Positions 41,274 to 46,489 of a stretch of DNA of 64,000 bases are shown here, piece by piece. The position numbers and the translations under genes were made by a program. The DNA lies in the NCBI RefSeq assembly GCF_030623445.1, contig NZ_CP130613.1:1116001-1180000 (forward strand), written 5' to 3'. Origin of the DNA: Pseudogemmatithrix spongiicola (lineage in GTDB: Bacteria > Gemmatimonadota > Gemmatimonadetes > Gemmatimonadales > Gemmatimonadaceae). The notes under the pieces are model-generated. The model saw only the letters and a list, made by a program, of their open reading frames with translations, was not told the origin of the DNA and ran no database searches. Positions within the stretch are counted from its first letter, which is position 1. The number at the start of each line of letters is the position of its first letter.

Positions 41274-41354
41274 GTACGGAGGCTCCGTTAACCGCAGATG
41301 TGAGATGTAAGCTGTAAGCTGTAAGAGAAGGGCAATCACACCGTCGGTGTGGTT

Positions 41355-42682
41355 GGGCCTATACGGATTTCTGTGTGTGAGGCCTCGTGGTGATCATGCG
41401 TGATCGCTGAAGCGCGTCCCAAACAGCATCCCGAGATACGGCATGGCGGCCTTCCACGCGTGATTCCCGCGCTTCCACTTCGCTTGGATGTTGCGCAGCG
41501 CGAGATAGAGCAACTTGGCCGCGGCTTCGTCGGTCGGGAAGTGGCCGCGGGTCTTCACGATCTTCCGGAGCTGCATATGCAGGCTCTCGATCGCGTTCGT
41601 CGTGTAGAGCAGCCGCCGGATCTCGGGCGGGTACGCGAAGACGGGTACGACGTGCGGCCAGTGCCGGCGCCACAGCGCGGTGATGGCCGGGTACTTGGTG
41701 CCCCAGGGGCCCGCCGCGAAGGCGTCGAGCGCCTGCACCGCCGCGGCTTCGGTCGGCGCGCGGTAGATGGCGCGCAGCGTCCCGCTGACCGCCTTGCGGT
41801 CCTTCCAGTTCGCGTACGCCAGGCTCTGCCGCACGAGATGCACCACGCAGTGATGCACCTGCGCCTGCGGGAAGACCGTCGTGATCGCGTCCGGGAAGCC
41901 GACGAGCCCGTCGACGAGCGCCACCAGGATGTCGTCGACGCCGCGCGCCTTCAGCTCGCTCATCACGCGCAGCCAGAAGCCCGCGCCTTCCGTCTGCTCG
42001 ATCCAGAGGCCCAGCACCTCCTTGTGCCCCTCGCGGTCCACGCCGAGCGCGAGATACACGGCCTTGTTCCGCACGGTGCCCTCGTCGCGGATCTTCACGC
42101 GCAGCGCATCGAAGATGACCACCGGATACATCCGCTCGAGCGGGCGCTGCTGCCAGGCCTGCACCTCGGCCACCACCTCGTCGGTGATCACGCTGATGAC
42201 GCTCGGCGCGATCTCCACTTGGTAGAGCTGCTCCAGATGCGCCTGGATCTCGCGCACGCTGACGCCCCGCGCGTAGAGCGAGAGCACAGTCGCATCGAAC
42301 TGCGGCAGGCGCCGCACGCCCGTGGGCACCAGCTGCGGCCGGAAGCTGCCCTCGCGGTCGCGTGGGATCTCGAGCGGCACGGCGCCGGTCTCGGTCAAGA
42401 CCGTCTTCGGCGTCGCGCCGTTGCGGTGATTCGTCTGCCCCGCGGGCTTCTCCTCGCCGGGCCCATAGCCCAGGTGCGCCGTCAGCTCGCCGGCCAGCAT
42501 CCGCTCCGCGAGCCGCTTCTGCAGCGCGCGCATCACGGCGGTGAAATCCGCCGGCGAACGCGCGTCCCCGATCAGCGCGTCCAGCGCCGCCGGGTCAAAC
42601 GTGGGGAACTCCTCTTTCGGCTTGGCCATCGCCCCTCCTTCAGGGTGAGTATGGCCTCACACACAGAATTCCGGATAGGCCC
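41355..42682 (-). mobile_element. IS256-family insertion sequence, copy B (1328 bp)
   Basis: Same length and ends as copy A (GGGCCTATACGG left, and inverted GGGCCTATCCGG right). Clean 8-bp target duplication. It sits in the stem-loop of the ATGTRAG unit between the TPR-like gene and ychF. Confidence 0.94.
41394..42629 (-). CDS. IS256-family (mutator-type) transposase, copy B
   Basis: Identical in protein sequence to copy A: 411 residues, triad in VIFDALRVKIRD, VALVDGLVGFP and TTNAIESLHMQLRK. Intact and presumably active. Confidence 0.94.
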   Translation of the reverse strand: MAKPKEEFPTFDPAALDALIGDARSPADFTAVMRALQKRLAERMLAGELTAHLGYGPGEEKPAGQTNHRNGATPKTVLTETGAVPLEIPRDREGSFRPQLVPTGVRRLPQFDATVLSLYARGVSVREIQAHLEQLYQVEIAPSVISVITDEVVAEVQAWQQRPLERMYPVVIFDALRVKIRDEGTVRNKAVYLALGVDREGHKEVLGLWIEQTEGAGFWLRVMSELKARGVDDILVALVDGLVGFPDAITTVFPQAQVHHCVVHLVRQSLAYANWKDRKAVSGTLRAIYRAPTEAAAVQALDAFAAGPWGTKYPAITALWRRHWPHVVPVFAYPPEIRRLLYTTNAIESLHMQLRKIVKTRGHFPTDEAAAKLLYLALRNIQAKWKRGNHAWKAAMPYLGMLFGTRFSDHA

Positions 42683-42732
42683 GTGTGGTTCCACCCTTAC
42701 ATCTTACATCTCACAACTTACATCTGCAGTCC

Positions 42733-43833
42733 TCAGACGTTGAACCTGAACAGCACCACATCCCCATCCACCATCACATACTCCTTCCCTTCCGCCCGCG
42801 CCAATCCCTTCTCGCGCGCCCCCTTCCAGCCGTTGTGCGCGACGAAGTCAGCATACGAGACCGTCTCCGCACGGATGAAGCCCTTCTCGAAGTCCGAGTG
42901 GATCACCCCCGCCGCCTTCGGCGCGGTATCGCCCTTGTGGATGGTCCAGGCGCGGACTTCCTTCTCGCCCGCCGTGAAGTAGGTCTGCAGGCCGAGGAGG
43001 CTGTAGCCGCCGCGGATCAGTCGATCCAAGCCGGCGCTCTCGATGCCCAACGAGGCCAAGAACTCCTTGCGGTCCTCGGGCGGGAGCTCGGCGAGCTCCA
43101 TCTCGATCTTCGCCGAGAAGGTGACGACCTCCGCGGGCTCGTGGTCAGCGGCGATCGCCGCGCGGAGCGCCGTGACGTGCTTGCCCTCGGCGCCGGTGAG
43201 TTCGCTGTCGGTGACGTTGGCCGCGTAGAGAATCGGCTTCAGCGTCAGCAGCTGCAGGCCCTTGAGTCGCTCGCGGTCTTCCGCCGTGAGCGACACGTGC
43301 CACAGCGCCTGGCCGTCGGAGAGCGGCTTGTGGGCCTTCTCGAGCGAGCTCACCTCGGCGGCTGCGTCCTTGTCGCCCGTCTTCGCGGCGCGCTTCGCCT
43401 TGTCGAGGCGCTTCTCGACCACGCTCAGGTCGGCGAGGGCGAGTTCGAACTCGATTGTCGCGCGGTCGCGCACGGGATCCACCGAGCCGTCGACGTGAAT
43501 CACGTCGTCGTCATCGAAGCAGCGCACGACGTGCACGATCGCGTCGGTCTCGCGGATGTTCGAGAGGAAGGCATTGCCGCGGCCTTCACCCGTACTCGCA
43601 CCCTTCACGAGGCCGGCGATGTCCACGAACTGCACGGCGGCGGGGACGGTGCGCTCGGGGTTCACGATCTCGGCGAGCTTCTCGAGCCGGGGATCGGGAA
43701 CGTTCACGACGCCGACGTTGGGGTCGATGGTGCAGAAGGGATAGTTCGCGGCTTCGGCCTTGGCGGCGGTGAGCGCGTTGAAGAGGCTGGATTTGCCGAC
43801 GTTGGGGAGGCCGACGATACCGAGGCTGAGCAT
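42733..43833 (-). CDS. ychF: Redox-regulated ATPase/GTPase YchF
   Basis: A 366-residue OBG-related P-loop protein. G1 is GLPNVGKSS, the G3 region is [11 protein letters not shown] and the coiled-coil insert lies between residues about 130 and 180. The C-terminal TGS domain is [29 protein letters not shown] (in pieces). YchF hydrolyses ATP rather than GTP and binds ribosomes. Full length and well conserved. Confidence 0.96.
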
Positions 43834-43939
43834 TTCAGGCTATTAACTGCAGATGTGAGATGTAAGATGTGAGATGTAAGGTAACGGATTGCGGGGATTC
43901 GGTCGTGGGCGGGTGGTCTGCCGATCTTACACTCCCGTC

Positions 43940-44338
43940 ATGCATCCTTTCCGAAAGCTTGCGGTGTGGGAGAAGGCGCACGAGCTGACCGTGCGTGTGC
44001 ATCGGGCGACCGAGGGGACCGCGATGCATCGGTCGCCGGGGTTGAGCTCCCAGTTGCGTCGATCGGTCGCGGCGATTCCGACGAACATCGCCGAGGGGAC
44101 GGGACATTCTTCCCAGGCGCAGTTCAATCGCTTCCTGGAGATCTCACTCGCCTCCGCCAGCGAGGCGGACTACCAACTCCTGCTCGCGAAGGATCTCGAG
44201 CTCATCTCGGCAAAAGAATACGCGCAGCTCGAGGCCCGCCTCTCGGAGGTACGCGCCATGCTGCTCGGCCTCCGCAAGCGTGTTCTCGAGAGGGCCGACG
44301 CCGCAAAACGTTCTGCGCGCAAGTCACAGAAGACGTGA
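43940..44338 (+). CDS. Four-helix-bundle protein (23S rRNA intervening-sequence/bAvd-like)
   Basis: A 132-residue protein from ATG 43940, MHPFRKLAVWEKAHELTVRV, then SSQLRRSVAAIPTNIAEGTG and FNRFLEISLASASEADYQL. These are the family motifs of TIGR02436 four-helix-bundle proteins (S23; related to the accessory Avd protein of diversity-generating retroelements). Only the four-helix protein is present; no reverse transcriptase or variable repeat is seen nearby. It is enclosed by ATGTRAG inverted repeats and followed by a strong hairpin, as if the whole unit were a module. Function unknown; nucleic-acid binding is a guess based on its basic C-terminus. Confidence 0.88.
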   Translation: MHPFRKLAVWEKAHELTVRVHRATEGTAMHRSPGLSSQLRRSVAAIPTNIAEGTGHSSQAQFNRFLEISLASASEADYQLLLAKDLELISAKEYAQLEARLSEVRAMLLGLRKRVLERADAAKRSARKSQKT

Positions 44339-44366
44339 GCGCGGAGTTCGGTGTGCGCAGTAAGAA

Positions 44367-44391
44367 GGGGGGAGGCCAAAGGCCTCCCCCC
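44367..44391. terminator. Hairpin between converging genes (likely terminator)
   Basis: GGGGGGAGGCC pairs perfectly with GGCCTCCCCCC around AAA. It lies after the four-helix-bundle gene and after the hppA stop on the other strand, where TTCTTACTG follows the stem. It may end both transcripts; the T-runs are weak. Confidence 0.5.
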
Positions 44392-44428
44392 GTTCTCACA
44401 TCTTACATCTCACATCTTACATCTGCGG

Positions 44429-46489
<2,061 letters not shown>

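Follow-up and report, generated by a model that had tools for sequence, protein, structure and literature searches.

An inverted pair of heptad arrays enclosing a single small gene raises two questions: whether the arms and the gene constitute a mobile unit, and what might move a unit among whose ORFs there is no transposase gene. The results presented here favor, with a probability of roughly 0.6, an S23-gene inverted-repeat mobile element that is an extra-ribosomal relative of the intervening sequences (IVS) of 23S rRNA.

The unit occupies positions 43843-44432 of the window (the whole stretch of DNA analysed, 64,000 nucleotides) and is intergenic, with hppA on one side and ychF on the other (Table 1). 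The window contains 14 copies of the heptad ATGTRAG where 5.35 +/- 2.35 are expected, a count of at least 14 being reached in 0 of 100 shuffles, and eight of the 14 copies make up the two four-unit arrays. The core arms, 24 nt long, are 100% complementary and form the closing stem when the unit is folded as RNA, with the S23 ORF inside the loop of this terminal inverted-repeat stem. The initial annotation had described inverted ATGTRAG arrays around a segment of about 0.5 kb with one S23 gene and a hairpin, and heptad count, arm complementarity and profile matches all confirm that description. The hairpin is probably the terminator of hppA and is retained by nearly all congeners having the unit. 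The adjacency of hppA and ychF is itself conserved among congeners, and the ychF-type gene was detected in 16 of 17 genus members. By sequence comparison, AACTGCAG is also the start of many S23-less units in the host genome. An Rfam search of the window yielded only a tRNA; the unit matches no known RNA family.

Table 1. Features of the inverted-repeat unit, its neighbors and the nearby sister unit (window positions).
Feature	Position	Strand	Remarks
Sister heptad unit	41298..42723	.	arms 41298-41318 and 42696-42723 around IS256 transposase gene
IS256 transposase gene	41394-42629	-	inside sister heptad unit
ychF-type GTPase gene, left neighbor	42733..43833	-	ORF; name from own sequence
Outer left end	43843..43852	+	TTAACTGCAG; read from sequence
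Left arm	43853..43880	+	four heptads: ATGTGAG ATGTAAG ATGTGAG ATGTAAG
S23 / 23S_rRNA_IVP four-helix-bundle gene	43940..44338	+	ATG at 43940; 132 aa; PF05635 and TIGR02436
Hairpin	~44367..44391	.	perfect, GC-rich; GGGGGGAGGCC-AAA-GGCCTCCCCCC
Right arm	44395..44422	-	four heptads, the left arm inverted
Outer right end	44423..44432	-	CTGCGGTTAA; overlaps hppA stop codon
hppA-type membrane pyrophosphatase gene, right neighbor	44429..46489	-	ORF; name from own sequence

The protein encoded between the arms matches PF05635 (8e-32; 110.1 bits, curated cut-off 33.8) and TIGR02436 (4e-31; 107.6 bits, cut-off 24). Its AlphaFold2 model is a confident helical bundle (pLDDT 95.8), for which the top Foldseek match is 2gsc (Xcc0516; TM 0.82/0.92), followed by 2rld (BT_0352; TM 0.75/0.90) and then by Avd of a Bordetella phage (4dwl; TM 0.72/0.87; 8% identity). 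A sequence profile search with S23 also recovers 2gsc and 2rld. According to the title of a 2006 paper cited in PMC3936711, Xcc0516 is an assembly of five four-helix bundles. S23 contains no known catalytic motif and, judged by a median dN/dS of about 0.2 among its orthologues, is under purifying selection. The four-helix-bundle fold shared with Avd of diversity-generating retroelements (4dwl, 8ube; 8-12% identity to S23) is what favors an RNA-templated mode of copying, which the initial annotation considered conceivable and in which an Avd-like S23 would act with a reverse transcriptase supplied in trans. However, neither the complete host genome (G000) nor 11 near-complete congeners contain a match to the reverse transcriptase profile PF00078, and S23 is antisense to both of its neighbors in the window. 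RNA-templated copying is not supported by these results and is largely refuted for this host, barring an unrecognised reverse transcriptase; we consider it very improbable.

The arrangement of arm, S23 and inverted arm extends well beyond this host. S23 was found in 159 of 199 relatives (genomes represented one per species, many of them incomplete), with as many as 14 copies per genome. A set of 186 loci was assembled, 109 from the relatives and 77 contributed by scanning named genomes; the latter were picked by two conserved peptide patterns and are therefore a biased sample of S23. When the 330 bp upstream of the S23 domain were compared with the 380 bp downstream, inverted arms at an SW score of at least 16 were present at 151 of the 186 loci versus 3 of 388 control windows, which had the same geometry and came from the same contigs, both control design and threshold being simple. 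About 19% of S23 loci fall below the arm threshold, and an Rfam search found no rRNA near those loci with weak or absent arms that were tried. The set spans Gemmatimonadota and some 25 other lineages, the named genomes coming from Cyanobacteria, Planctomycetes, Acidobacteria, Clostridia, Bacteroidetes, Proteobacteria, Fibrobacteres, Chloroflexi and others. S23 was found in archaea as well; one such locus, L211, has an arm score of 14, slightly below the threshold. The module in the window is one of a widespread family of S23 elements of about 0.5 kb that lie between genes and are bounded by inverted repeats.

The arms of this family are mostly periodic. Their mean autocorrelation is 0.62-0.72 at lag 7 and 0.22-0.38 at lags 3-6 and 8-13, and the periodic arms consist largely of 7-nt repeats, with some of 8 nt. 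The heptads vary by locus and by species, and the left and right arms agree within one locus. Arm polarity is strong, the left arm being AG-type; as an inverted pair is identical read from either strand, this polarity is uninformative on the direction of S23. Stop codons in all frames were considered as the cause of the 7- or 8-nt period, an explanation that was dropped because several heptads contain no stop. At L221, in a Planctomycetota MAG, the arms are exceptionally long, S23 being flanked on each side by more than 200 nt of GGTGGAC-type heptads (score 161.5). At some loci, mainly in G020, G035, G132 and G158, long non-periodic inverted repeats replace the periodic arms and are seemingly another arm state. 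At L098-L103, L079-L086 and L095-L097, in these same four genomes, the non-periodic repeats are unlike among loci of one genome, and some start with AACTGCAACTGAACG-like sequence.

Is such a unit mobile? The initial annotation proposed a comparison of occupied with empty sites, and that comparison places exact boundaries at the arms both in cyanobacterial plasmids and in the sister species G049 and G111. In plasmids of Calothrix brevissima, a unit with GGGTGTA-type arms separates an integrase gene from a hypothetical gene. In Tolypothrix PCC 7601, whose integrase is 94% identical, as well as in Aulosira and in N. carneum, the same two genes are 3-4 bp apart, with no unit. A Nostoc plasmid site, at which the neighboring gene is 94-98% identical, exists in three allelic states: an S23 unit whose arms are AGGGAAC (N. 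edaphicum, C052), an S23-less inverted unit (ATCC 53789) and an empty site (two C057 plasmids). The S23 unit of N. edaphicum and the S23-less unit of ATCC 53789 have a common left junction. G049 harbors two units that are 90% identical over 525 bp, from arm to arm, between unrelated flanks; one of the two sites is empty in G111, and the other (L401, G111:C107) holds an S23-less inverted unit of 9-nt repeats, GGGATCGAC/GGGATCCAG. By eye, no target-site duplication was seen at these empty-site pairs, and the empty sites carry small losses, which together do not indicate a defined transposition chemistry. It is nonetheless highly probable that the family is a mobile element. The suggestion that the window copy is itself a mobile unit stands for the family and not for a recent event at this locus. 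Within the genus, inheritance of the S23 gene is stable at one site, hppA-ychF, which holds it in at least 11 congeners, and the window copy is an old resident rather than a recent arrival.

At this shared site the gene is retained and the arms are unlike. The heptads found there in different species are ATGTRAG, GACGGAA, GAGACGT/GAGACTT, TCGTGAG/TTGTGAG, GGCTGAA, GGGGTCA, GATGGGA and GGTGTGA, family names here and below having been assigned partly by eye. Mean arm complementarity is 21.0 within a species versus 10.5 across species, a value as high being reached in 0 of 20,000 permutations. Both arms at orthologous sites have been exchanged for the heptad family of the species while the unit persists, and S23-less copies elsewhere in a genome bear the same family as its S23 unit. 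For example, G005 contains 18 copies of AGACGTGAGACKTGAG, the heptad of its S23 unit, against 0-1 in eight congeners, and the ATGTRAG pattern occurs 20 times in the host and is absent from G005. Ten S23-less ATGTRAG sites of the host were read by eye in congeners: G005 has heptad arms at nine of the ten, mostly GACGGAT-type, and G015 and G010 have families of their own at about seven to eight and at five, respectively. G008 has GACGGAA at most of these sites. Alignment of the L004 interior showed conservation of the terminator and of a CATATTCC stretch, the difference being confined to the arms; at other sites the unit interior differs as well. Inversion of the interior was rejected, the hppA-ychF and L004 sites each showing one orientation in all species that were compared. 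Across pairs of S23 loci, heptads are shared by 7 of 7 pairs at S23 identity of at least 80% and by 48%, 12% and 3% in lower bins, the pairs being non-independent.

Two further observations were made at these loci. At the site of a host heptad unit, G015 (L244, upstream part) and G008 (L374) carry octads of the GAGGCACA type, which in other phyla also surround S23 (L182, L183). The hppA-ychF locus is present twice in G008, as L119 and L134 (C131 and C49), each with S23 and GACGGAA arms; this may be a duplication, or strain mixture or contamination in the assembly.

Within the host genome, a single contig of 3.26 Mb, GCAGATGTRAGATGTRAG occurs 20 times and its reversed control 0 times. Most copies are gene-free inverted pairs at a spacing of 80-130 bp with a hairpin between them. 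Heptad arms also flank host terminator or promoter regions and one IS256 copy. The initial annotation had placed heptads without S23 near the unit, and they are indeed present at 41298 and 42696-42723; these repeats are likewise inverted arms and, as had gone unnoticed, enclose the IS256 transposase gene. This IS256 has sub-terminal inverted repeats of its own (GTGTGGTTGGGCC...), which also lie inside the arms and are dissimilar to the heptads. The host contains two S23 genes. The second, L022 (G000:C1:1890671-1890913), is divergent, lies between dnaJ- and hrcA-like genes and has G-rich inverted arms different from ATGTRAG. Two tRNA genes flank a half unit of ATGTRAG heptads at L007 1505-1525 (G000:C1:742455).

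Dispersed intergenic inverted doublets of this kind, present in the host and in G005, form hairpins in species-specific families with a gene near its own repeats, and in this they recall REPINs, which raises the possibility that they are moved in trans by a RAYT or another Y1 transposase (PMC3116915). Unlike REPINs, their arms are tandem heptads and a four-helix-bundle gene lies between them. Moreover, the Y1 transposase profile PF01797 has no match in any of the 17 genus members. A mover of this type is refuted for the genus at the sensitivity of PF01797, and we give it almost no credence. With neither PF00078 nor PF01797 matched, the two obvious movers in trans are absent at that sensitivity.

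Heptad arrays track the presence of S23. Arrays of period 7 or 8 number 36 in 777 kb from six S23-positive genomes versus 7 in 1,069 kb from ten S23-negative genomes, with no phylogenetic correction, and arrays of period 9-11 are scarce to a similar extent in the two samples. Two of the six S23-positive genomes, G035 and G020, lack simple heptad arrays over the 100 kb sampled from each; longer non-periodic inverted repeats are present there. At the sites examined in two S23-negative congeners, G011 and G013, clear arms are missing and at most decayed-looking remnants are seen. The hppA-ychF spacer is 86-94 bp in G004 and G013, and that of G011 contains a left-arm remnant and an apparent start of S23. 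This association between S23 and arrays is a correlation, not a causal link.

The association bears on whether S23 is a mere passenger, that is, whether slippage and inverted-repeat template switching generate heptad arrays at gene borders, recombination homogenises them, and S23 just lands or survives in the resulting hairpins. Several observations are of the kind expected from such a process: S23-less units contain homologous host sequence and may differ just in their arms, as at the terminator and CATATTCC stretch; an IS256 sits inside one heptad unit of the window; and the site of one G049 copy is, in G111, an S23-less inverted unit of other repeats. Against it, S23-negative relatives are depleted of arrays, S23 loci without inverted arms are a minority, complete units have been inserted or duplicated from arm to arm, and slippage does not account for a heptad family that recurs at many sites in just one species. 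A passenger role for S23 is unlikely. The related concern, that the arms lie randomly around unrelated genes, applies in so far as they also flank terminator or promoter regions and IS256; they are, however, found at gene borders and very largely in S23-positive genomes.

The arms could instead be a host RNA feature, selected as stems that end or process transcripts (terminators, RNase III sites), with S23 as a binding regulator and mobility incidental. Terminator-like hairpins are often enclosed in the units, the S23 unit folds better than its shuffles (z = -5.9), and a stem of the same layout, that of the Coxiella IVS, is cut by RNase III (PMC4990558). However, the replacement of whole heptads at many genome sites is unlike ordinary compensatory evolution, the same genes in S23-negative congeners have absent or decayed arms, and the presence or absence of units is precise. 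A host RNA feature is rather improbable, less so than copying through RNA.

A mobile S23 element leaves the mode of action to be considered. S23, which is a pentamer in a solved relative and has an Avd-like fold, may bind the stem formed by the arms, as single-stranded DNA or RNA, and would be needed for the spread or upkeep of the units. S23-less hairpins would then be non-autonomous satellites of S23. A role as stem-binding factor agrees with the fold, with S23 being encoded between the two arms, with selection on the gene and with the near-absence of arrays where S23 is lacking; that S23 is the acting factor is a possibility to which we assign slightly less than even odds. The units may be copied through host replication or repair, copying across the inverted repeat may maintain the likeness of the two arms, and heptad families may displace each other at existing sites by conversion. 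Copying at the DNA level by host machinery is at present a doubtful proposal.

The closest known system is the IVS of 23S rRNA. In Coxiella burnetii the IVS is 428 nt long and has a 28-bp stem with an S23 ORF in the loop, and such IVS are regarded as selfish elements with a sporadic distribution (PMC4990558). The unit described here has the same layout, its terminal inverted repeats forming a stem whose loop holds the S23 ORF. In contrast, the window unit lies between protein genes and not inside a 23S rRNA helix, the arms of S23 units here are mostly tandem 7- or 8-mers replaced between species, and there are many S23-less copies and multiple S23 genes per genome. Rewritten heptad arms and S23-less satellites are outside the published description of IVS. 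In addition, PMC3936711 records 18 S23 genes within cas loci, one example being a Pleurocapsa gene between cmr3 and cmr2; these are possibly insertions of the same element.

Heptameric repeats have a literature of their own. Two papers describe GGGNATC repeats in Xanthomonas and Nostoc, often convergently paired in Xanthomonas, including X. campestris, from which Xcc0516 comes (PMC4692102), and TAACTGA repeats in Beggiatoaceae, cyanobacteria and Bacteroidetes (PMC4679880). Like the arms described here, these are 7-nt tandem arrays between genes, and a Nostoc S23 unit (L166) has GGGGAGT arms. A term search of both papers found no link to S23, and the origin of the repeats is left open there. 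Within a literature search that excluded preprints and covered subscription journals thinly, no publication joining S23 to heptad arrays was found.

Finally, the results connect three subjects kept separate in the papers found: the S23 protein of rRNA IVS, heptameric repeats between genes, and the Avd-like fold. We tentatively propose, as somewhat less probable than an acting role for S23 itself, a separate class of mobile element whose sole protein is a non-catalytic S23 ring, which would spread hairpins with 7-nt arms and rewrite them genome-wide via host replication or repair, and which would explain the heptameric repeats of cyanobacteria, Xanthomonas and Beggiatoaceae. At these loci it can be tested whether a single small protein drives both the spread of DNA repeats and their coordinated rewriting, with no known transposase or reverse transcriptase involved. 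Concerted evolution through joint replacement of arms at many sites would be unusual among bacteria. If such insertions form an unrecognised class, the annotation of bacterial intergenic regions would change.
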